Origin: a virus
Reading direction: 5' to 3' (one strand)
Virus record (IMG/VR): IMGVR_UViG_3300037331_000025
Span: 1-27,945 of that record
Length of the DNA stretch: 27,945 nucleotides
A program made the translations under genes and the position numbers. Positions 9,752 through 27,945 of the stretch are shown here, piece by piece; position 1 is the first letter of the stretch, and every line of letters starts with the position of its first letter. The notes under the pieces were generated by a model, which ran no database searches, was not told the origin of the DNA, and was given only the letters and a program-made list of their open reading frames with translations.

Positions 9752-10498
9752 TTAAAATCTAAGATTTATTTTTTCTCTTCTTCGATAATTATATATTTCC
9801 TCAATTAAAACCTTATATTGACCTACATTTGTGCAGTCTTGCAGTGTTGTAGGTTGTTGTTTAAGTTTTGAAATAAACTCTGTAAACTCAAAGTTTTCGT
9901 TTTTAAACATCTGATAAATAGCTAGAATAAAACTTCTTCTTAAAAACCCCTTATAGTAGGGTTCTATCATTAATATCTTATCCGCTTTCCTTTTTGCATT
10001 TTCTAAATTTTTTACTTTAAAAAGTCCTGCCTTAAATCTTGTTGCAGCAGAATTAGAGTTTCCTCCAGCTTGTTCATCAGAAAGAAGCATTATTGCGACC
10101 TGATTTTGAAAACCATAATCAGCTACAAATTGACGATAAACCTCATAGTCTTTGTAACCTAAATCACAATAACCATTCACGTAGTCTACAGTTTGCCAAT
10201 TCTTCATGTTAGCATTTAAAATCTGAACTTCTTCAAGTCCATAATCTTTTCTAATAATATAATTAATAGGTAATTTTAAATCTTGACTAATTAAAAAACG
10301 GTGCTGTCCGTCAATTATTTCAAATTTTTCATTAACCATTATAATAGTGGTTAAGTGTTTTTTATTCATGCTTTCTTTTAATCGTGTCAAATGCAATTGA
10401 TTTACATCACGATTTCCGTTTAAAGTTTTAAATAAAGAATAGTCTTTTGTTGTGTGTACTTGAATATCATTCATTGGTACGTTTTCAATTAAATTCAT
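9752..10498 (-). CDS. ParB/Srx-like domain protein, reverse-strand moron
   Basis: A 248-aa protein with an N-terminal ParB/sulfiredoxin-like domain: MNDIQVHTTKDYSLFKTLNG, HLTRLKESMNKKHLTTIIMV, then FEIIDGQHRFLI (DGQHR at about 63-67), the variant of the ParB GERR-type nucleotide-binding loop seen in phage and mobile-element proteins. After it comes VDYVNGYCDLGYKDYEVYRQ and a helical C-terminal half. ParB-type domains bind nucleotide and DNA; some phage versions are nucleases or regulators, and none can be chosen here. It is the only reverse-strand gene, has its own promoter (10535-10568) and terminator, and splits the head-tail operon. Domain call good, role open. Confidence 0.78.
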   Translation of the reverse strand: MNLIENVPMNDIQVHTTKDYSLFKTLNGNRDVNQLHLTRLKESMNKKHLTTIIMVNEKFEIIDGQHRFLISQDLKLPINYIIRKDYGLEEVQILNANMKNWQTVDYVNGYCDLGYKDYEVYRQFVADYGFQNQVAIMLLSDEQAGGNSNSAATRFKAGLFKVKNLENAKRKADKILMIEPYYKGFLRRSFILAIYQMFKNENFEFTEFISKLKQQPTTLQDCTNVGQYKVLIEEIYNYRRREKINLRF

Positions 10499-11131: not shown

Positions 11132-11581
11132 ATGAGCAATTTTATCAAAGGAGAAGTATCAATTCTCTCAATTCACGATGGAACGTCCTACAAGCCTGTG
11201 GCGTGCCTAACTTCTAACGCAATAGCTACTGATTTATCAGTTATTGAAAGTACAACAAAATGTAACCCTGGAATTATGGTAAGACAGCCAGGTATGTTTA
11301 GTTATTCCGTAACCGCAGAAGGTCAATATATTGACACTACTACTGTAGGTGGAGATGATGCTAAAAGATCGCATGATGCTTTGCTAGCTAAGCAATTAAC
11401 AAAGACTTTGGTTAATTTTAAATTAGACACTAATGTATCTAACACTGAATCAATTAAATATTTCGGTTCTGCGGTTATTTCTAGCCTTTCAGCTGATTTT
11501 GGAAGCGGTGATGATTTAGCTACGTTTTCTTTGACATTAGATGGAAACGGATTGGTTTTACTAACAGACCCATTGGTATAA
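11132..11581 (+). CDS. Major tail tube protein
   Basis: A 149-aa beta-rich protein. It opens SNFIKGEVSILSIHDGTSYK and continues PVACLTSNAIATDLSVIEST, then SVTAEGQYIDTTTVGGDDAK and a C-terminal FSLTLDGNGLVLLTDPLV, the pattern of TP901-1-type siphophage tail tube subunits that stack as hexameric rings. It precedes the frameshifted chaperone pair and tape measure, as in most siphophages. A paralogue with the same opening (FIKGE--ILSI) occurs at 16283. The start is the first ATG, 7 bases after the previous stop. Confidence 0.85.
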   Translation: MSNFIKGEVSILSIHDGTSYKPVACLTSNAIATDLSVIESTTKCNPGIMVRQPGMFSYSVTAEGQYIDTTTVGGDDAKRSHDALLAKQLTKTLVNFKLDTNVSNTESIKYFGSAVISSLSADFGSGDDLATFSLTLDGNGLVLLTDPLV

Positions 11582-16282: not shown

Positions 16283-16792
16283 ATGATTATATTTATTAAG
16301 GGAGAAGATAGAATTTTATCAATAGGTTTTGAGGGCGTTTTTTATCCTATAGGCTGCCTAAGTGACAATTCATTTAGCGAAAGTTCTGAAATGCTAGATA
16401 CTACAACTAGAGAATCAAATGGATGGGCAACAGCGCAAGCTGTTAAACAAAATTATAACATATCTTTTAATGGATTGCAAATAAATACAACAGTAAGCGG
16501 TGGGGATACTTCAAAGTTTTCATACGATACATTAAAGCAAATTAAAAGAAATAGAGAAAAAATACAATGGAAAATACAAGGCACACAAGTGCCAAGTATA
16601 GACTATGGATTTTGCACAATTAATGAAATTTCAGAGAGTACCCCTGTTAATGAATTTATAACATTTACAGGTAATTTACTTGGTTTTGGTCAGCCTTTTT
16701 TTGCGGCGAGCGCAAACGACCCTGTATTTGTTCAATTTGAAGATAACGACTTGCAAATATTACAAAATAACGACAATTATATATATAGATAA
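16283..16792 (+). CDS. Second tail-tube-like protein (paralogue of 11132-11581)
   Basis: A 169-aa protein that opens MIIFIKGEDRILSIGFEG and goes on FYPIGCLSDNSFSESSEMLD, matching the tube protein opening FIKGEVSILSI--G--YKPVACLT. The later blocks YNISFNGLQINTTVSGGDTS with KFSYDTLKQ also match YSVTAEGQYIDTTTVGGDDA with KRSHDALLAKQ. The C-terminus has an extra tail rich in Asp and Asn. It is encoded beyond the tail-tip gene and before the fibres, so it may form a special ring at the tail tip or a fibre-attachment ring. Homology by eye is clear; the role is inference. Confidence 0.72.
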   Translation: MIIFIKGEDRILSIGFEGVFYPIGCLSDNSFSESSEMLDTTTRESNGWATAQAVKQNYNISFNGLQINTTVSGGDTSKFSYDTLKQIKRNREKIQWKIQGTQVPSIDYGFCTINEISESTPVNEFITFTGNLLGFGQPFFAASANDPVFVQFEDNDLQILQNNDNYIYR

Positions 16793-21061: not shown

Positions 21062-21937
21062 ATGAAAAATAAACGTAGAAGGTATCGACTTAGTGATTAT
21101 CAAGCTGCAAATTTAGGCTTAGAATTAAAGAAAATTAATCGGTATAGCTTAACCTTAGAGCAAGAAGAAAAGCATTTAAATAGCTTTTCAAACTTAGAAA
21201 ACACAACAAGGAAAAGTATTTTAATAGATGCATTTAATAATCAAGACAATCTAAAACCTTTGCCAAAAAATATAAAGATAAGTAAAACAGGCAAAAGGGT
21301 ATTAGTAATTGGAGATTTGCACGAACCATTTTGTTTAGATGGATATTTAAATCATTGTACTAATACTTATAAGAAGTATAAATGTGATACAGTTGTTTTT
21401 ATTGGAGATATTATAGACTCACATTTCTCATCATTTCACTAAATTTGTACAGATGCTTTAGGTGCTGATGAAGAATTAAACGCATCAATAATTAAATTAA
21501 ATAAATGGTATATAGAATTTCCAGAAGCTACGGTTATTATTGGCAATCACGATAGGTTAGTAATGAGAAAAGCAAATACTGGAGGTATTTCCTCAAAATG
21601 GATAAGACCATATAACGAGGTTTTAGAAGTGCCAAATTGGATTTTTACTGAAAGAAGAGTAATTGATGATGTACAATATATACACGGAGAATCTGGCAGA
21701 GCATCAAAGAAAGCAAAAGATGATATGATAAGTACTGTACAAGGTCATAGGCACTCGGAAATGTTTGTAGAGTGGATTGTGGGGTATAAACAAAAGATTT
21801 TTGGTTGTGCAGTTGGTTGTGGTGTAGATATAAATACCTACGCTATGAGATACGGTAAAGCATTTAAAAAGCCAGCTATTGGCTGTGCTGTTATTGAAGA
21901 TGGTTTATTAGCTACTAACGTACCAATGGAGTTATAA
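21062..21937 (+). pseudogene. Metallophosphoesterase interrupted by one in-frame TAA
   Basis: Frame 21062 runs on to 21937 with a single TAA at 21440-21442, between ...IIDSHFSSFH and ICTDALGADEELNAS. All motifs of calcineurin-like phosphoesterases are kept on both sides: GDLHEPF (about 81-87), FIGDIID (about 117-122), IIGNHDR (after the stop), HGESG and QGHRHSE. In related phage proteins this place usually reads S-H-E followed by a DP-D-like stretch, so a GAA to TAA change is the simplest explanation. The second part could be translated from the ATG at 21563, but that product would lack the first two metal motifs. The cause could be a recent nonsense mutation, sequencing error or readthrough. 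Lies after the spanin. Confidence 0.75.
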
Positions 21938-21938
21938 A

Positions 21939-22079
21939 ATGGATTTAAAAACTTGTACAAAATGTAAATTTAAATAACCTATCTTAGGGCAGAGTAAAAT
22001 AGTAAAGCAAGGAATTAAATACCGTTAGTTTAAGTAAAATGAAGATTATTCCTTAGATGATAGTTAGAAAATCTATCAC
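21939..22079 (+). pseudogene. Decayed zinc-finger / HNH-like reading frame
   Basis: Starting 1 base after the phosphoesterase, the frame reads MDLKTCTKCKFK, stop, PILGQSKIVKQGIKYR, stop, FK, stop, NEDYSLDDS, stop, KIYHG. This is the look of the CTKC--KPI-F-KS-K--G-KYRCK-C class of small HNH-endonuclease-type phage proteins, with four nonsense codons, two of them where a zinc-binding cysteine pair would be expected. It is therefore a relic. The remaining bases to 22202 hold the terminator at 22083 and the promoter at 22148. Confidence 0.5.
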
Positions 22080-22082
22080 GGT

Positions 22083-22113
22083 AAACCCGCTAATTAAATT
22101 TAGTGGGTTTTTT
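22083..22113 (+). terminator. Intrinsic terminator closing the structural/lysis unit
   Basis: AAACCCGCTAA (22083-22093) can pair with TTTAGTGGGTTT (22099-22110, one G-T pair), followed by a T tract. The stem is nearly the same as the one after the major capsid gene. Confidence 0.82.
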
Positions 22114-22147
22114 ATTGTCTTAAATTTTTGTTAAATTAATTAATAAA

Positions 22148-22181
22148 AGTATTGTTTAAATAACCTTATAAACTATCTTTG
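22148..22181 (+). promoter_or_regulatory. Promoter of replication/recombination operon, shared AGTATTGTTT box
   Basis: AGTATTGTTT (22148-22157) holds TTG at 22152-22154; TATCTTTG is at 22174-22181; spacer 19 bp. The upstream TAATAAAAGTATTGTTT word is also found at 664-680. The leader to the ATG at 22203 is about 15 bases. It is expected to drive the early-type genes to the right. Confidence 0.82.
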
Positions 22182-22202
22182 TAGAAACAAAAAACTTTAA
22201 TT

Positions 22203-22421
22203 ATGGAACAATTAACAATTAATTACGAAGGTTTAGATTTTACGGTTTGGGGATATTATACAAAAGAGCATAGACCTATATCATATTACGAAAGACCAGA
22301 GGATGCAGATTTTGATATTAGAGAAGTATATTTATCAGATGAAAATATTATTGAATTATTAAAAGAATATGTTGTAGATCAGCTTCAAGAATTAGCATTA
22401 GAACAATTAAAAAATAAATAA
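22203..22421 (+). CDS. Small acidic hypothetical protein, first gene of early operon
   Basis: A 72-aa acidic soluble protein, first gene after the strong promoter at 22148. It starts EQLTINYEGLDFTVWGYYT and has a C-terminal helix (NIIELLKEYVVDQLQELALE). The first half looks like a short beta hairpin. First genes of phage early operons often encode small regulators or host-takeover proteins, but no family is recognised. Confidence 0.65.
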   Translation: MEQLTINYEGLDFTVWGYYTKEHRPISYYERPEDADFDIREVYLSDENIIELLKEYVVDQLQELALEQLKNK

Positions 22422-22422
22422 T

Positions 22423-22539
22423 ATGAGAGAAGTAGAAAAATTTTACGATTGGTTATTAAAGTGTAAAAATGTTTATTTAAGCGACAACAATAAAATTAAT
22501 AATTCATTTTTGATAGTTTTAGAAAATGGAAAGCAATAG
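22423..22539 (+). CDS. 38-aa hypothetical protein
   Basis: A tiny open frame starting 1 base after the previous stop (MREVEKFYDWLLKCKNVYLS) and overlapping the next gene by 14 bases. Close packing supports it, but it is short and could be chance. Confidence 0.4.
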   Translation: MREVEKFYDWLLKCKNVYLSDNNKINNSFLIVLENGKQ

Positions 22540-22762
22540 AGATGTTTTTTTAAAAATGACCGAGGAACACTATATGGATATTCCTTCGCTAACTAGACAA
22601 ATGTTTTTGACTTCTAAAAGAATTGACAGCGATAGTTATGATTGGCAAGAAAATATGAAAGACGAGTTTTTCTCTAATCTTTACTATTTAAAAAAAGAAG
22701 CAACCAAAAAGCTAGAAGAAAGACAGTACCAACTTAGAGAATTAAGAATTAAAAATAAATAA
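22526..22762 (+). CDS. Hypothetical charged helical protein, 78 aa
   Basis: A 78-aa protein with a long charged C-terminal helix (NLYYLKKEATKKLEERQYQL). It overlaps the small frame before it and ends 2 bases before the ERF-family gene, so it is in the recombination operon. It may be a helper of the annealing protein, but this is only from location. Confidence 0.6.
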   Translation: MESNRDVFLKMTEEHYMDIPSLTRQMFLTSKRIDSDSYDWQENMKDEFFSNLYYLKKEATKKLEERQYQLRELRIKNK

Positions 22763-22764
22763 TT

Positions 22765-23304
22765 ATGAAAAATATTATTATTGCATTGCTAAAAGCACAG
22801 AAAGAAATGGGTAACGCAACAAAAGACAATGTTAACCCTTTTTTTAAGTCAAAATACGCAGATTTAAACAGCGTGAGAGAAGCAGTAACACCTTTACTTA
22901 ACGCTAATGGAATTGTAGTATTACAGCCTATGTGTACAATAGATGGAAGTGAATATGTAAAGACAGTTTTAATGCACGAAAGCGGAGAAGTTTTAGAGAG
23001 TTACACTAAAATTATTTGCAAGTCTCAAAACGATCCTCAGGCATACGGTAGCGGTGTTACTTATGCTAGAAGATATGGTTTGCAATCATTTATAAGCATT
23101 GGAGCAGATGACGACGATGGAAATAAAGCAAGCAAACAAGAAGTTTTTAAGCCAACTAAAGAGCAAATATCTAATGAATTGTTAATTGCAAATGCTGAAA
23201 ATTTAGAAAGTTTATCTAAAATATTTAAATCGTTTGACTTACAAGAACAGAAAAGATTAACTAAGTTTACAACTGAAAGAAAATTAGAATTAACAATTAA
23301 ATAA
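22765..23304 (+). CDS. ERF-family single-strand annealing protein
   Basis: A 179-aa recombinase of the ERF superfamily, which anneals complementary single strands during phage recombination and concatemer formation. Key blocks: ALLKAQKEMGNATKDNVNPF (about 8-26), FFKSKYADLNSVREAVTPLL, ANGIVVLQP, then SQNDPQAYGSGVTYARRYGL and ADDDDGNKA at about 113-121. These are the family hallmarks. The remaining 55 residues are helical and probably a partner-binding tail. It starts the functional core of the early operon and is followed by the DUF3127 gene, the phage's candidate SSB-like protein. Confidence 0.92.
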   Translation: MKNIIIALLKAQKEMGNATKDNVNPFFKSKYADLNSVREAVTPLLNANGIVVLQPMCTIDGSEYVKTVLMHESGEVLESYTKIICKSQNDPQAYGSGVTYARRYGLQSFISIGADDDDGNKASKQEVFKPTKEQISNELLIANAENLESLSKIFKSFDLQEQKRLTKFTTERKLELTIK

Positions 23305-23311
23305 ATAAATT

Positions 23312-23557
23312 ATGCTAGTTTTAAGTAAAAATTTAGAAGAAGGTATCGACGCTAGAGACATGAAAGATGGCGAAATTGCTGTTGTTGTTTCAGGAACTTA
23401 CAAAAATATAATAGTTCAAAGGTATGAAGATATTTTAATTTCATTAGGAAATGAAAGCGGTAATTCTTACTCCTTTATTTTAAATCGTAGTCGTTGCGAA
23501 GAAGGAAAGATGTTCGTAAGAGTCTTACAAAAAGGAGAAAAATTAACAATTAAATAA
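23312..23557 (+). CDS. Hypothetical beta-rich protein, 81 aa
   Basis: An 81-aa protein between the ERF and DUF3127 genes. It starts LVLSKNLEEGIDARDMKDGE and contains ILISLGNESGNSYSFILNRS, alternating strands as in small barrel folds. The ends of this gene and of the ERF gene share the tail LTIK and very similar following DNA (ATTAACAATTAAATAAATAA-type), which may be a small duplicated junction. The role is unknown; location suggests DNA metabolism. Confidence 0.6.
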   Translation: MLVLSKNLEEGIDARDMKDGEIAVVVSGTYKNIIVQRYEDILISLGNESGNSYSFILNRSRCEEGKMFVRVLQKGEKLTIK

Positions 23558-23564
23558 ATAAATT

Positions 23565-23891
23565 ATGGAAATTTTAGGTAAGGTTATCGTATTAGGCGAT
23601 ACACAATTAGTAGGAAGTGCAGGAACTTTTAAAAAAAGAACTGTAGTTATTGAGACAAGCGAACAATATGCGCAGACTATTCCTATTGATTTTATTCAAG
23701 ATAAATGCGATATTCTTAACGCTTATAAATTAGGCGATAATGTAAAAATAGGCATTAACATTAGGGGTAACGAATATAACGGAAAATACTACGTGTCGTT
23801 AAATGGATGGAACATAAATAAGACAGATACATCAAGTACAACAGTAAAATCTACGGAATTAGTTGAAGAATCAAATGATTTGCCATTTTAA
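23565..23891 (+). CDS. DUF3127 protein, SSB-like
   Basis: A 108-aa protein that matches the DUF3127 pattern: MEILGKVIVLGDTQLVGSAG, KKRTVVIETSEQYAQTIPID, a KLGDNVKIGINIRG strand pair, then NGKYYVSLNGWNI. The layout is a small OB-like barrel typical of Bacteroidetes and their phages, and it ends in an acidic hydrophobic DLPF tip like SSB tails that bind partner proteins. Directly after the ERF gene, it is probably the phage's single-strand binding partner. The family is recognised; its binding role is inferred. Confidence 0.85.
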   Translation: MEILGKVIVLGDTQLVGSAGTFKKRTVVIETSEQYAQTIPIDFIQDKCDILNAYKLGDNVKIGINIRGNEYNGKYYVSLNGWNINKTDTSSTTVKSTELVEESNDLPF

Positions 23892-24066
23892 TATTAAAAA
23901 AAACATTTTGAAGTATAACAAAGAGCAAAAGTATATTTTAAAACTTACAGGAGGTCCATCATTTAGAGGTGGATTTCCAAAAAACACACCTACATTTGTA
24001 ATAAAAGATGGTTTTAAAATAATAGAAAGTAAAATGAACAATTTAACAAATAATAAAATGAAATAG
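23863..24066 (+). CDS. Small hypothetical protein overlapping DUF3127 gene
   Basis: The open frame has its first ATG at 23863, which overlaps the DUF3127 gene by 29 bases; a TTG at 23908 would start after it (KYNKEQKYILKLTGGPSFRG). The rest is basic with a GGPSFRGGF patch. The TTG start is the neater one, but neither is certain. No function assigned. Confidence 0.45.
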   Translation: MKNQMICHFNIKKNILKYNKEQKYILKLTGGPSFRGGFPKNTPTFVIKDGFKIIESKMNNLTNNKMK

Positions 24067-24205
24067 TATTAAAAAGCCTTTCAATACATTAATAGGCTGG
24101 GTTAAGGTGCAAACAGATAATTTTTATTTTAATTAGTGAGATTTTTACGAATTAAATTATCGGGTTACAGGTTTCGAATACCATTGCATCACTAAAATTA
24201 AAATT
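24067..24205. other. Gene-free spacer with nested inverted repeats
   Basis: 139 bases without a gene. AGCCT and AGGCT face each other near 24075-24105, and TTAGTGA (24133-24139) can pair with TCACTAA (24189-24195) over 49 bases containing a TTCGAA palindrome. The length and T-loop-like TTCGAAT suggest tRNA at first sight, but no cloverleaf closes. It may be a structured RNA or a relic. Confidence 0.35.
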
Positions 24206-24601
24206 ATGATAAATGAAAATAAAGTTAAAATAGGAGATGTTTATAAAATTTGTTACAATAAAAAGATAATTATTACAGAAGATAATTGGGATTCTATAAA
24301 CTATAAAGAAGTAGAGAGATTGCCTTTAGATAATTTAGTGTTAATGTCTTTTGGTTTTAAGCAATCTTTAGATTTGTTCACTTATATTTTAGATGATTTT
24401 GAAATTATTACAAATGAGTTTAGATTTAAAGCTTTAAATTACCAAAAAATTAACAATATTTATTATAATAATGGTTTTGAATTTAAAGTTATAAATCAAT
24501 TTTTTTATAAAAACGAGTTAATGTCTCCAGTTAATTATGCTGATGAATTACAAAGCATCTATTTTATGCTTACTAAACAAAAATTAAAATATAAATTATG
24601 A
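24206..24601 (+). CDS. Hypothetical protein, 131 aa
   Basis: A 131-aa soluble protein rich in Asn, Lys, Tyr and Phe. Alternating strands fill the first two thirds and a helix ends it (NYADELQSIYFMLTKQKLKY). The C-terminal pattern resembles that of small phage proteins of unknown function common in flavobacterial phages. It is coupled to the next gene by an ATGA overlap. Confidence 0.65.
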   Translation: MINENKVKIGDVYKICYNKKIIITEDNWDSINYKEVERLPLDNLVLMSFGFKQSLDLFTYILDDFEIITNEFRFKALNYQKINNIYYNNGFEFKVINQFFYKNELMSPVNYADELQSIYFMLTKQKLKYKL

Positions 24602-24804
24602 TTCCATTATACTACTGCAAAGTTTGTAACGAAAAATACGGCTACAAGCAAAATTCAATTAATTGCTGCTTACCAAAATGGGTTAAATTAAAGGAGCTTT
24701 ATGAGCCGACCATAGCACAGTACCAAAAAAGTTATTACGAGCGCAAAAGCGAAGTTATTAAGGCTCAAAGCGCAATTAATTATAGTAAAAGTAAATTAAA
24801 ATAA
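24598..24804 (+). CDS. Small Cys-rich protein, possible zinc ribbon
   Basis: A 68-aa protein starting inside the previous stop. CKVC (residues 7-10) and a later CC (about 23-24) give four cysteines in the first 25 residues, as in short zinc ribbons. The rest is a basic helix (YYERKSEVIKAQSAINYSKS). This combination suggests nucleic-acid or protein binding; no family named. Confidence 0.6.
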   Translation: MIPLYYCKVCNEKYGYKQNSINCCLPKWVKLKELYEPTIAQYQKSYYERKSEVIKAQSAINYSKSKLK

Positions 24805-24810
24805 AAAATT

Positions 24811-25062
24811 ATGATTAAAGAAATTAAATTAACAAAAAGTGACGAAGAAAATCTTTTTATAAATATTAAAAACGAAATCATTTTAAAACTACAACATATT
24901 AAATATACAGGACACCTTGATGACTTGGGAAATGAAATAGGCATTGCTGTATCTAACCATATTTGTAAAAAAGAAAAATCATTAAATATATTTGGTTTTG
25001 ATAAAGAATCTTTTATTGATGGATTTGAGCATGGTTCTTCATTAAAAGATGGAACTCATTAA
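24811..25062 (+). CDS. Hypothetical protein, 83 aa
   Basis: An 83-aa acidic/basic mixed soluble protein with a helical first half and a C-terminal FDKESFIDGFEHGSSLKDG. This IDGFxxG ending resembles other small phage proteins of unknown role. It is last in its gene cluster; a promoter and structured RNA follow. Confidence 0.6.
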   Translation: MIKEIKLTKSDEENLFINIKNEIILKLQHIKYTGHLDDLGNEIGIAVSNHICKKEKSLNIFGFDKESFIDGFEHGSSLKDGTH

Positions 25063-25114
25063 AATATTAATAAAAATAAAATTTAAAAAATACTTTTAAT
25101 TAACAAATTAGTTG

Positions 25115-25122
25115 TATATTTG
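25115..25122 (+). promoter_or_regulatory. -7 box TATATTTG of small RNA/leader
   Basis: TATATTTG at 25115-25122 would start RNA near 25128. The -33 region at 25093 reads TTT rather than TTG. A copy of the AGTATTGTTT decamer (25126-25135) sits right at the predicted start point instead of at -33, as an operator would. Confidence 0.55.
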
Positions 25123-25127
25123 CTTAG

Positions 25128-25216
25128 TATTGTTTGGTAGAGAACTCGATACGTTTTAAAGCATTTTTATTATCCTATCAGGAAGGTACTCTACTACCGA
25201 CTTGATAGGATTTTTT
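25128..25216 (+). ncRNA. Probable structured small RNA or attenuator leader
   Basis: About 89 bases run from a predicted start point to a perfect 9-bp terminator stem, ATCCTATCA (25172-25180) with TGATAGGAT (25203-25211), and T6. Inside the terminator loop, GGTA and TACC (25185-25188, 25195-25198) form a small hairpin whose loop CTCTAC (25189-25194) is exactly complementary to GTAGAG at 25137-25142 near the 5' end, a pseudoknot-type or switch-type pairing. No open frame of use is present. The gene at 25228 lies just after the terminator, so either a small RNA is made or its readthrough controls that gene. Confidence 0.6.
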
Positions 25217-25227
25217 AATTTAAAATT

Positions 25228-25869
25228 ATGGCAGAAAATAAAAAGTCATTTACAGCATATTGCGATTGGAACACTACATTTAATTCTTTGCCTGATGCTA
25301 AAGCAGGACAATTAATAAAGCATCTTTTATCTTATGTAAATGATGAAAACCCAGAAACAAATGATTTACTTATAAATGCAGTTTTTGCAAGTATAAAGGC
25401 TACTTTAAAAAGGGATTTAATTAAATGGGAAGCTAAGAGCGAAAAAAATAAAGAAAGCGCATTAATACGTTGGAATAAAAATAATGCAAATAAATGCGAA
25501 CGCATAGAACGCAATGCGAAACATGCCGATAGTGTTAGTGATAGTGTTAGTGATAGTGATATAAAAGTAAATAACAACCTGTCGGTTGATTGGGTGGCAC
25601 TTTTAAAATTCTTTAATGATGTAACAGGAAGAAACTTTAAAGTTGTAACCCCAAAAGCTAAAAAGCAAATAAAAGACAGATTAAAAGAAGGCTATGTAAA
25701 AGCTGATATTATAAATGCTGTTAATAATTGCTTCTTAGATAAATATCATCAAGAAAATCCTCACTTTTTAACTCTTGAATTTATAAGTCGAAGCGATAAG
25801 ATGGATAAATACTCAACGGATGCTTTAAAAACTAAACCAAAAAAAAATAATATAAATATTAACAATTAA
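25228..25869 (+). CDS. Replication protein with phage C-terminal DnaD-like domain
   Basis: A 213-aa protein of two parts. Residues 1-75 (SFTAYCDWNTTFNSLPDAKA, GQLIKHLLSYVNDENPETND) match the DUF6291-type N-terminal domain found in Bacteroidetes phage replication proteins. Residues about 115-185 (ALLKFFNDVTGRNFKVVTPK, IKDRLKEGYVKADIINAVNN, HFLTLEFISRSDKMDKYS) match the conserved phage C-terminal domain related to DnaD and helicase loaders. They are joined by a repeated SVSDSVSDSD linker. It probably helps start phage DNA replication by bringing in helicase. A structured leader with a terminator lies directly upstream. Confidence 0.82.
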   Translation: MAENKKSFTAYCDWNTTFNSLPDAKAGQLIKHLLSYVNDENPETNDLLINAVFASIKATLKRDLIKWEAKSEKNKESALIRWNKNNANKCERIERNAKHADSVSDSVSDSDIKVNNNLSVDWVALLKFFNDVTGRNFKVVTPKAKKQIKDRLKEGYVKADIINAVNNCFLDKYHQENPHFLTLEFISRSDKMDKYSTDALKTKPKKNNININN

Positions 25870-25879
25870 ATTATAAAAG

Positions 25880-26077
25880 ATGAAAAAATTTAGATTTATT
25901 TTAGCTTTATTATTTCTTACAGAAGTAATAGTAGGAATTATGCATATTGTTATAGGAGTTTTTTTAAAAGAGACTTACCCGTTTATAATGTATATAATTA
26001 TGCCTTTAGCTATTCTAGCTTGTGTTTTATTAACCTTTATTTTGTCGCCTATTCTTAATTGGATAATGAGGGGTTAA
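25880..26077 (+). CDS. Small two-helix membrane protein, 65 aa
   Basis: Residues 5-28 (FRFILALLFLTEVIVGIMHI) and about 35-60 (FIMYIIMPLAILACVLLTFI) are hydrophobic, and the N-terminus is basic. It starts 10 bases after the replication gene. It looks like a generic small inner-membrane protein. The G+C-rich spacer that follows marks the beginning of the cassette-like tail. Confidence 0.6.
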   Translation: MKKFRFILALLFLTEVIVGIMHIVIGVFLKETYPFIMYIIMPLAILACVLLTFILSPILNWIMRG

Positions 26078-26260
26078 GCTCAGTTATAACGGGATTCGGC
26101 TTTAAGCATTTGCAAATTTCGGAAACGTAAATTTTCCGTTACTACTAAATTTTAAGCGAAATACCAACACGAATTAACCAAATATTTTTCCGTTGCTTTC
26201 AAACCGATGTTGTGCGATGGTGCTTTTAACAACTAATATTAATCAATTAAAAACAAAAAA
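26078..26260. repeat. attC-like palindromic spacer A
   Basis: A gene-free spacer of 183 bases with richer G+C than its neighbours. It begins TATAACG 8 bases after the stop and ends GATGTTGTGCGATGGTGC before the next gene. Outer parts pair imperfectly: TCGG-(C/T)TT--AAGC near 26096-26107 against GCTTTCAAACCGA near 26195-26207. CGGAAA and TTTCCG (26120-26125, 26133-26138) make an inner hairpin. The layout of an AAC-type left end, imperfect palindrome and GTT-type right end is attC-like. Confidence 0.4.
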
Positions 26261-26494
26261 ATGAAATACATAAACAATTTTTTAGAATACAAAAAAAATA
26301 AAATAGAAAAAGCTATTTATAGGGTTAACGATAATAATGGGAACACTTATTATAGCAGCGATTATGTTAAATGGTTGGAAGATCAATTAACTATACCCGC
26401 TGTTGTAAAATCTTTGTTACATTACAAAACCTGTGAATTTTGTAAATTACCTACTGATGGCAAGAAATGTTATAGTAAGAGATGTCCTGTATAG
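26261..26494 (+). CDS. Hypothetical protein with C-terminal zinc-ribbon-like cysteines
   Basis: A 77-aa protein. The body is helical and charged, and the last 25 residues hold CEFC then KKCYSKRCPV, a four-Cys set like a zinc ribbon. The start of its unit (GTTGT at 26209) is complementary to ACAAC found about 16 bases after its stop, as in an integron cassette. No family known. Confidence 0.6.
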   Translation: MKYINNFLEYKKNKIEKAIYRVNDNNGNTYYSSDYVKWLEDQLTIPAVVKSLLHYKTCEFCKLPTDGKKCYSKRCPV

Positions 26495-26587
26495 TGGCTA
26501 TGTTTTACAACAGCCGTATAAGCGCAGTTTTAATTGTTCCTATACTTTGTTAAAAATAAGAAATAATTAAATAAAAAAATATAACAG
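26495..26587. other. Spacer B of cassette-like tail
   Basis: 93 gene-free bases with ACAACAGCCG soon after the stop and TTTGTTAAAAATAAG about 40 bases later. It is shorter and less structured than spacers A and E. Confidence 0.25.
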
Positions 26588-27085
26588 ATGAGTTGGAAAC
26601 TAGAAAATAATACTAAACGCATATACAACGTTTTTAAGCGTTCAAAATCTCAAATCTATAGTGAAGATATAGAAGCTTTAAAAGAGGTCTTAAATCACGT
26701 AAATGAAGGTAACAAAGCATTAGTAAACGATAATTTACTTTTTGCAAAACTATTATCTATTCATTTAAGGCAGAATTTAAACTATTATGGTTCTATAGGT
26801 GGTGCAATAGCTGCGACAAAAGAATTACTAAAAGAACCATTAAATAATAGCTTAGAAATGCTTAGAATTGATTTAAACTCTGTAGATTTACAAAATTATT
26901 TTAAAAGCATTGGAATTGTAGATGAATATACAACTGGGCAAAGATTAAATAATAATTATTTACTAAGCGAAAATCAAAAGGAAATAGTAGATAAATGCAA
27001 AAAAAATTGGACTATTGAAAAAGTAGAAAAATCATTGATTAATAGCGTAAATGATTTTTTAAAGGATGTAGACAATTATAAGTAA
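26588..27085 (+). CDS. Hypothetical helical protein, 165 aa
   Basis: A 165-aa, mostly helical soluble protein (SEDIEALKEVLNHVNEGNKA, LLFAKLLSIHLRQNLNYYG, GGAIAATKELLKEPLNNSLE). It is the largest gene of the tail. The fold may be a helical bundle, but I recognise no family. Its stop codon forms the first bases of a TAACGGC motif found repeatedly in the spacers here. Confidence 0.65.
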   Translation: MSWKLENNTKRIYNVFKRSKSQIYSEDIEALKEVLNHVNEGNKALVNDNLLFAKLLSIHLRQNLNYYGSIGGAIAATKELLKEPLNNSLEMLRIDLNSVDLQNYFKSIGIVDEYTTGQRLNNNYLLSENQKEIVDKCKKNWTIEKVEKSLINSVNDFLKDVDNYK

Positions 27086-27144
27086 CGGCTAAGGCTATGA
27101 AGCCTTGCTGATTAAAAGGCACTAACTTTAAAATTAAACACAAA
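27083..27144. repeat. Spacer C with short perfect hairpin
   Basis: TAACGGC (27083-27089) overlaps the stop codon; AAGGCT and AGCCTT (27090-27095, 27100-27105) then form a perfect hairpin around ATGA. No T tract follows, so it is not a good terminator. Confidence 0.35.
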
Positions 27145-27354
27145 ATGAGTAAAGAAAACGAAAACTTGGATAAAGCACAAAACGGCAATGATTTTATAGC
27201 CGATGTTAGCAATAGTACGGTATTAGAAAAACCTACTATGGGAAAATACGGATGGTACAGAAGTACTTCATTTGAAGGAGAAAGTGGATGGATTTTCGAA
27301 GGTGGTGAAGATGCTTATTATGAGGCACTAAAGATTTGGGAAGCACAACAGTAG
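27145..27354 (+). CDS. Hypothetical protein, 69 aa
   Basis: A 69-aa acidic protein with PTMGKYGWYRSTSFEGESGW in the middle, aromatic and Gly-rich, and a C-terminal helix EDAYYEALKIWEAQQ. It stands alone between spacers, with no sign of operon coupling. Function unknown. Confidence 0.55.
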   Translation: MSKENENLDKAQNGNDFIADVSNSTVLEKPTMGKYGWYRSTSFEGESGWIFEGGEDAYYEALKIWEAQQ

Positions 27355-27507
27355 TATTGTTGCTAACGGCGGAATATAAGAGCAGTAGCCGACAAATAAA
27401 AACTGTTCTTTCAGATTAAAACTAATATTAACAAATATACAATAGCCTTAAAATTAAGCACTATAACGGCTATTGCTTTTATACTATGTTATGGTGCGTT
27501 TATTTTT
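27355..27507. repeat. attC-like spacer D
   Basis: 153 gene-free bases. GCTAACGGCGG begins soon after the stop; CAATAGCC (27440-27447) and GGCTATTG (27468-27475) are a perfect inverted pair; GTTATGGTGC (27488-27497) ends it before the next gene. Confidence 0.4.
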
Positions 27508-27702
27508 ATGGGATATATAATTGTTTGGAGAAATAGCCACAGAGAACCGCATATTGACGTTGATAGTCATAATTTTAAAGAAGAGTATAGTACTTACGAA
27601 AGTGCCAAAGAATCAGCTGAGGAAATATTAAGAAATGAAAACGAAAACGAGAAAAGCCCTTGGTATTTTGACTTCCAAATTTACGAGGAATCTACTTCTT
27701 AA
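27508..27702 (+). CDS. Small hypothetical protein in a cassette-like unit
   Basis: A 64-aa acidic protein starting GYIIVWRNSHREPHIDVDSH, followed by a helix (TYESAKESAEEILRNENENE) and WYFDFQIYEE. The strand-helix-strand layout resembles a small orphan family seen alone in Bacteroidetes genomes. The gene is embraced by the inverted pair GTTATGGTGC (27488) and GCACCATAAC (27705), as one integron cassette would be. Function unknown. Confidence 0.6.
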   Translation: MGYIIVWRNSHREPHIDVDSHNFKEEYSTYESAKESAEEILRNENENEKSPWYFDFQIYEESTS

Positions 27703-27908
27703 ATGCACCATAACGTTATGCCGCTTTGAGATGGTGTGTGCTTCGTAACCGCTAATTTTCCGCTGAACGAAAACGCGGTGCGATACGGTAATTCCACTAA
27801 GTACACACTAGCTCAAAGCGGCGGTTGGCAAATCGGTTTTTTATTTATTTTAATATTCGGTTACACTTCTGCACCGTTTAAGTCGGAAGTATTTTAAAAT
27901 TTATTATT
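27703..27908. repeat. attC-like spacer E with long imperfect palindrome
   Basis: 206 gene-free bases. GCCGCTTTGAG (27720-27730) is complementary to CTCAAAGCGGC (27812-27822), and the arms go on with GTGTGT (27734-27739) facing ACACAC (27803-27808) and ACCGC facing GCGGT inside. It begins CATAACG after the stop and ends CGGTTGGCAAATCGG. The centre is far richer in G+C than phage genes here. Confidence 0.5.
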
Positions 27909-27945
27909 ATGCTTAGTATAAATAAAAATGAATTACTCAAAATCA
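27909..27945 (+). CDS. Start of a gene cut by the window end
   Basis: An ATG at 27909 after an A/T-rich leader opens a frame (MLSINKNELLKI) that runs off the window. Only 12 codons are visible, so the product is unknown. It is the next unit after spacer E. Confidence 0.35.
   Translation, partial: MLSINKNELLKI

Follow-up and report, generated by a model that had tools for sequence, protein, structure and literature searches.

Can a phage carry an array of mobile gene cassettes without an integron integrase, and if so, how is each cassette built and moved? Integrons are the textbook system by which bacteria capture genes, and the question was raised by the end of a viral contig (IMG/VR record IMGVR_UViG_3300037331_000025). 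The window analysed here is this whole contig of 27,945 bases, which carries genes for terminase, portal, capsid, tail and lysis. The original prediction, made from sequence alone, read positions 26,078–27,908 as an integron-like cassette array without integrase. We consider it likely that the window holds the visible end of a phage-borne cassette array, integron-like with reversed polarity and a different recombinase; the role of the recombinase, the use of strands and the existence of circles are inferred. The window itself displays the anatomy, and mobility is displayed by its relatives.

Layout of the array in the window

A replication-initiation-like gene (DUF6291 / Phg_2220_C; 25228–25869, + strand) lies directly upstream of the array, and 3' of it small same-strand genes continue to the contig end. 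Elsewhere on the contig, a ParB-like gene (PHROG 12305; 9752–10498) was found on the opposite strand within the tail module, ORFs 11132–11581 and 16283–16792 resemble, by eye, distant tail-tube-like paralogues, and ORFs 21062–21442 and 21563–21937 resemble two parts of one phosphoesterase-like protein, possibly divided by a frameshift or by an error in sequencing.

Four single small genes in one direction had been predicted, and these were confirmed as ORFs on the + strand at 26261–26494, 26588–27085, 27145–27354 and 27508–27702. Every AACG-type and GTT-type motif quoted in the prediction was also present, the former at 26085 (TATAACGGG), 27082 (GTAACGGC), 27362 (GCTAACGGC) and 27709 (CATAACG), and the latter at 26209 (GTTGTGC), 27488 (GTTATGG) and 27824 (GTTGGCA). 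The claim that spacers separate all four genes held only in part, the gap at 26494–26588 being without such a motif. The claim that only some spacers have GTT ends required correction: the spacer starting from GTAACGGC ends at a GTT at 27205, which falls inside ORF 27145–27354, and the site therefore overlaps coding sequence. Measured from AAC to GTT, the regions termed H are 118, 118, 120 and 109 nt long. Searches of Pfam and PHROGs gave no confident match for the four small proteins, and an Rfam search returned nothing.

The window contains two complete units, one unit that the contig end truncates and a further, degenerate one, all on the + strand. At 26085–26208, an R'' (TATAAC) that closes the preceding unit is followed by the attC-like, non-coding H_A (26091–26208, 118 nt), with its R' (GTTGTGC) at 26209. 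H_A has a 6/2-nt spacer layout, matching other phage H, and gave no folding signal alone. The segment 3' of it (26209–27086) holds the genes 26261–26494 (77 amino acids) and 26588–27085 (165 amino acids) and an R''-like end, TTATAAGTAAC; its two ends mismatch, so at least one boundary has been lost. A perfect 12-nt inverted repeat (26399–26410 and 26503–26514; GCTGTTGTAAAA and TTTTACAACAGC) has one arm inside gene 26261–26494 and the other just 3' of it, and could possibly be a decayed unit end.

The first complete unit, U_D (27087–27367, 281 bp), consists of H_D, R', gene body and R'', and its ends pair (GTTAGCAATAGTACGG with GTTAGCAACAATACTA). H_D (27087–27204) is an attC-like region with an A-rich leader, an ATG at 27145 and 20 codons (MSKENENLDKAQNGNDFIAD), and it opens a 69-amino acid ORF (27145–27354) that spans the junction between H and gene at GTT 27205. 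As the start codon and 20-residue leader sit in the hairpin, the gene body of U_D has no start of its own. The junction layout is the same in Cellulophaga phage phi17:1, whose homologous unit is one of the swapped blocks. The second complete unit, U_E (27368–27714, 347 bp), comprises H_E (27368–27487, 120 nt), R' (GTTATGGTGCGTTTA) at 27488, gene 27508–27702 with its own ATG, and R'' (TAAATGCACCATAAC); a homologue of H_E, also non-coding, occurs in Cellulophaga phage phi46:3. Next comes H_F (27715–27823, 109 nt), a strong hairpin (GCCGCTTTGAG and CTCAAAGCGGC), and then R' GTTGGCA with the beginning of the next unit (27824–27945). The contig, at 27.9 kb, thus ends within the array.

Pairing of unit ends and start codons within sites

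Within each unit, the first ~14 nt after GTT are complementary to the last ~14 nt before AAC. Two such GTT/AAC end pairs were found in 22000–27945 against a shuffle mean of 0.16, and across phage loci 104 end pairs matched at 10 of 10 positions against 3 in one Markov shuffle. Some of these loci overlap or are related, and the end-pair and arm counts are accordingly not independent events. For 19 leader-type cassettes, own ends matched far better than the ends of other cassettes (0 of 10000 shuffles), with position 11 never matching. An unbiased set, in which selection was on end positions 1–10 only, gave 61 phage units and 83 units from 40 host IntI loci. In the phage units the match fell to 0.10 at position 11 and was about 0.80 at positions 12–14, whereas host units gave 0.69, 0.45, 0.41 and 0.37 at positions 11–14. 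Position 11 of the phage units is mostly G on the start side and T on the end side, that is, a G.T pair on the coding strand. Separately, cassettes at host IntI loci (L086–L125) were seen to have end complementarity that reaches past the R box of 7 nt as far as about position 11.

Complementary R''/R' and L''/L' arms like those of attC were present, with paired H arms in 32 of 35 cases, a length of mostly 113–120 nt, a 5' spacer of about 4–7 nt and a 3' spacer of 1–3 nt; this spacer layout is unlike that of arrays at host IntI loci. Folding gave weaker support. As single strands, most H of the window showed no excess stability over shuffles (spacer A, z +0.2/+0.6), the exception being 27709–27831, which contains H_F (z −4.7 for the top and −4.2 for the bottom strand). 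RNAalifold of 20 leader-type sites returned a stable stem without double-sided covariation, the copies being too similar to each other.

By DNA search, parts of the window region matched Cellulophaga phages phi17:1 and phi46:3. Fourteen viral loci share the N-terminal part of ORF 27145, with C-terminal parts that mostly differ. A 25-base core of the leader-type site, GGCAATGATTTTATAGCCGATGTTA, occurred exactly in 21 viral contigs versus 1 of 84,980 genomes of bacteria or archaea; allowing up to 3 mismatches, the count among 396 Bacteroidota genomes was 2, including the exact-match genome. Around the core, a conserved inverted repeat (CGGCTAT..TTGCCG / CGGCAA..ATAGCCG) encloses the A-rich leader, the ATG and about 20 codons. 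In 24 non-redundant copies the frame continues from ATG through GTT into the gene body, the length is the same in 20 copies, and several other copies have altered loops with the frame kept. One common type of H holds the RBS region as well as an ATG and a leader of about 20 codons that reads in frame into the gene body. Variation in these codons is about equal at positions 1, 2 and 3, which together with the kept frame fits our inference that the leader is an initiation tail with a selected frame and not a conserved domain. Among the 61 phage units, the frame crossing the junction was open in 31, versus 5 and 6 in the other two frames; host units showed no such bias.

Movement of units in related phages and the putative recombinase

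Sister phages isolated in a single North Sea season are distinguished solely by the gain or loss of whole cassettes. Seven of the Polaribacter phages Freya_1–10 were compared (Freya_1, 2, 5, 6, 8, 9 and 10), and these have a common core of 43,114 bases with 0–4 differences. Between gene 66 and the integrase gene, their arrays are set apart by exact blocks measuring 842, 902, 472 and 307 bp; a further, internal block of 902 bp is missing from Freya_8. Every left joint reads ...AAC↓ (the arrow marking the joint), the integrase-side flank is always ACCCCTATAAC, the integrase-end joint is ACCCCTATAACAACAATAAG, and each block has H first and its own R'' last. Most differences lie directly 5' of the integrase gene, beside a constant, attI-like AAC↓ACCCCTATA. 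The criterion of an attI-like entry site adjoining the integrase is thus met in Freya, with the direction of gain inferred. Likewise, Danklef_1 carries an exact 781-bp methyltransferase unit at TAAC↓ that is absent from Danklef_2, and Cellulophaga phages phi17:1, phi18:1 and phi12:1 swap units between TTTAAC↓ and TAAC↓ or CAAC↓, the swapped unit of phi17:1 (2431–2745) carrying the leader-type H of the window. P12002L and P12002S are 99% identical in shared parts and break near AAC joints, which is consistent with AAC-joint units. A search for empty sites among IMG/VR loci found no clean pair.

Gain, loss and swapping in these relatives, then, involve exact AAC-bounded blocks, each built as AAC↓, H (a 5' spacer of about 4–7 nt, L arm, loop, L arm and 1–3 nt), R' (GTT), gene and R'' (NNNNAAC)↓. 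What moves is H together with the gene that follows it, an order opposite to that of an integron cassette, although the ancestral state is undetermined for any single pair. The integron anatomy of a gene followed by its attC is therefore not seen, as joints fall on the AAC side and not at GTT, and attC stands at the 5' end of the unit. We also considered that the next cassette to land takes its leader from the cassette upstream, as a canonical G↓TT joint would imply; this was rejected, Freya showing that H travels with the downstream gene.

Over longer times, bodies and leaders are exchanged too. The body DIVDSDIATIEALHDLL occurs as free-standing genes (L059–L063), behind three different leaders (L053/L055, L056 and L057) and, in L054, as a fusion with a resident protein of the phage. 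A zinc-finger-like body lies behind leaders in L136 and L138, has its own start in L139 and L140, and is fused to a 111-amino acid N-terminal part in L137. The window's own U_D body recurs in L006 with another leader and a different H on both sides. Where H differs, identity is mostly 0.7–1.0 within the ends versus 0.1–0.6 in the 30 nt outside. Since the same gene body is found with different H, the GTT boundary is also a breakpoint, at which H or leader and gene body are swapped over longer time scales. In L035, a unit without ATG has a full N6_N4_Mtase domain after a 21-amino acid leader. DNA methyltransferases were frequent unit cargo (L028, L035, L062 and L158), and in-frame fusions of unit bodies to N-terminal parts of longer resident proteins were noted at L054:221–535 and L137:868–1407. 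The same site types were thus found with other genes and the same genes with other sites, and gene order varies among relatives; an order fixed in all of them would have refuted the prediction. Its idea of a mobile integron-like cassette cluster of Bacteroidetes phages was supported by this reshuffling and by the gain and loss of whole units.

The predicted lack of an integrase held for the contig; no integrase gene above the search threshold was found in it or in the phi17:1 record. A CALIN is defined by at least two attC sites with no intI nearby; the contig offers two complete units and no integrase, but it breaks off within the array. In relatives (G004, G009, G018, Leef_1 and Freya), short tyrosine recombinase genes lie directly downstream of the array on the same strand. 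Their products (267–287 amino acids) match PF00589 and PF13495, with best models NF040815 (XerA-like) and TIGR02224/5, all below curated cut-offs. A catalytic PF00589 domain with an N-terminal SAM-like domain, the criterion for a Xer-type enzyme, was met by these integrases and by nothing in the window. They are not IntI: they score 97–158 bits on TIGR02249 (cut-off 265 bits), which none of 29 phage records passed, and they lack a segment of ~37 amino acids found in IntI. AAC↓RCCCCTATA precedes the integrase gene in G009, Leef_1 and Freya. That the array-end recombinase moves the units is inferred from its position. In published work the integrases of Freya, Danklef and Leef are read as a sign of temperate life, with no mention of cassettes (PMC8776804).

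In the mechanism that we propose, R'', H and R' would join into one folded site in an excised circle, and it is inferred that the 14-nt pairing between the ends of a unit exists because they meet there. The short Xer-like recombinase at the 3' end of some arrays would cut AA^C in R'' and insert units at the attI-like site; for phages without the gene, such as the window contig as sequenced, the enzyme would be supplied in trans. Several points stand against this model. Circles have not been observed, the choice of strand is inferred, and most H in the window fold no better than shuffles. Danklef_1 and Danklef_2 differ by a unit despite a truncated integrase (L158/L159), annotated at 43 amino acids; the Danklef recombinase possibly acts in trans or was lost recently. 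The GTT breakpoint implied by gene bodies with different H, and the lack of an integrase in this contig, also count against it. Finally, attC2 of P12002L recombines with IntI1 in E. coli via the strand that its authors name the 'bottom strand', in keeping with ordinary attC behaviour (PMC9892861).

Alternative explanations and relation to integrons

The alternative that survives best, which we still regard as unlikely, is that these are ordinary integron cassettes (CALIN) in phages, mobilised in trans by host IntI. True IntI occurs in 105 of 396 Bacteroidota genomes, phage CALINs are on record and a site of P12002L is a substrate for IntI1 (PMC9892861), and host cassettes too have extended end pairing. 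Against it, joints at AAC↓ with H before the gene are found in Freya, Danklef and Cellulophaga phages; the position-11 signature, spacer layout and frame-crossing ORFs are unlike arrays at IntI loci; the leader-type core is all but absent from the bacterial and archaeal genomes searched; and a different recombinase stands at the array end. Phage mosaicism, meaning homologous recombination at conserved intergenic hairpins with no dedicated recombinase, appears very unlikely. Phage genomes are mosaic and similar H types recur, but the joints have no more in common than the AAC core, in some cases with a few further bases (up to 11), the units are exact, and several different units occur at one point beside the integrase while the 43-kb core is unchanged. 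That leader-type ORFs form one gene family, conserved at the N terminus and hypervariable at the C terminus, with spacers that are promoters or terminators, is suggested by the MSKEN...NGNDFIADV common to many ORFs but is all but excluded by bodies that elsewhere stand free with their own ATG or behind other leaders, by leader codons varying about equally at all three positions, and by breakpoints at GTT and AAC with flank identity at or near chance.

Phage attC clusters (CALIN), including that of Polaribacter phage P12002L, were already known (Qi et al. 2023; PMC9892861), and P12002L has the same unit signature as the present phage units. Its divergent attC directions, noted by those authors, could reflect the mirrored polarity, although this is only an inference. 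Like integron cassettes and phage CALIN, the phage units are single-gene units with a complementary R''/R' core bearing AAC and GTT, L arms and exact gain and loss, and the array lies in a phage. Unlike integron cassettes, they run from attC to gene and join at AAC↓ and not at G↓TT (G^TT of R' in integrons), with 14-nt end pairing, a fixed G.T at position 11, a start codon in some sites and no IntI. The recombination site also supplies translation initiation to cassette genes in attI1 (ORF-11, ORF-17 and ORF-18) and in short ORFs of attC (PMC8876359), but these act through coupling to, or reinitiation after, a separate short peptide, whereas the phage leader is read in frame and belongs to the cassette protein. 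Coding fusion across cassette junctions is known from class 1 integrons (PMC4670013), where it arises via attC loss; the phage site stays intact. XerC, XerD and XerA are the best family models for the array-end integrases, yet the phage enzymes accompany cassette arrays and not chromosome dimers. The system is integron-like by function, which is inferred, but falls short of integron membership on IntI and cassette polarity. In the literature searched, which lacked preprints and most subscription papers, we found nothing that describes 5' attC cassettes, in-frame starts encoded by attC or variation of the Freya array. Within that literature, the 5' attC, the attC-encoded start, the link to a recombinase and the gain and loss between isolates are apparently new.

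A bolder reading, towards which the balance tips only slightly, is that flavobacterial phages encode their own cassette capture apart from IntI integrons, with a short Xer-like recombinase, a downstream attI-like site and 5'-attC cassettes. A site placed in the 5' coding region would then allow N-terminal leader swaps and domain fusion to resident proteins (L054 and L137), an exon shuffling without introns. Sites doubling as start codon and leader show that a recombination site can become part of a protein. The proposal is directly testable, with variant phages and hosts in culture. If true, a mirrored phage-encoded integron would be a second solution to gene capture, using another recombinase and varying among isolates of one phage, and it would explain much of the turnover of small genes and DNA methyltransferases in flavobacterial phages.
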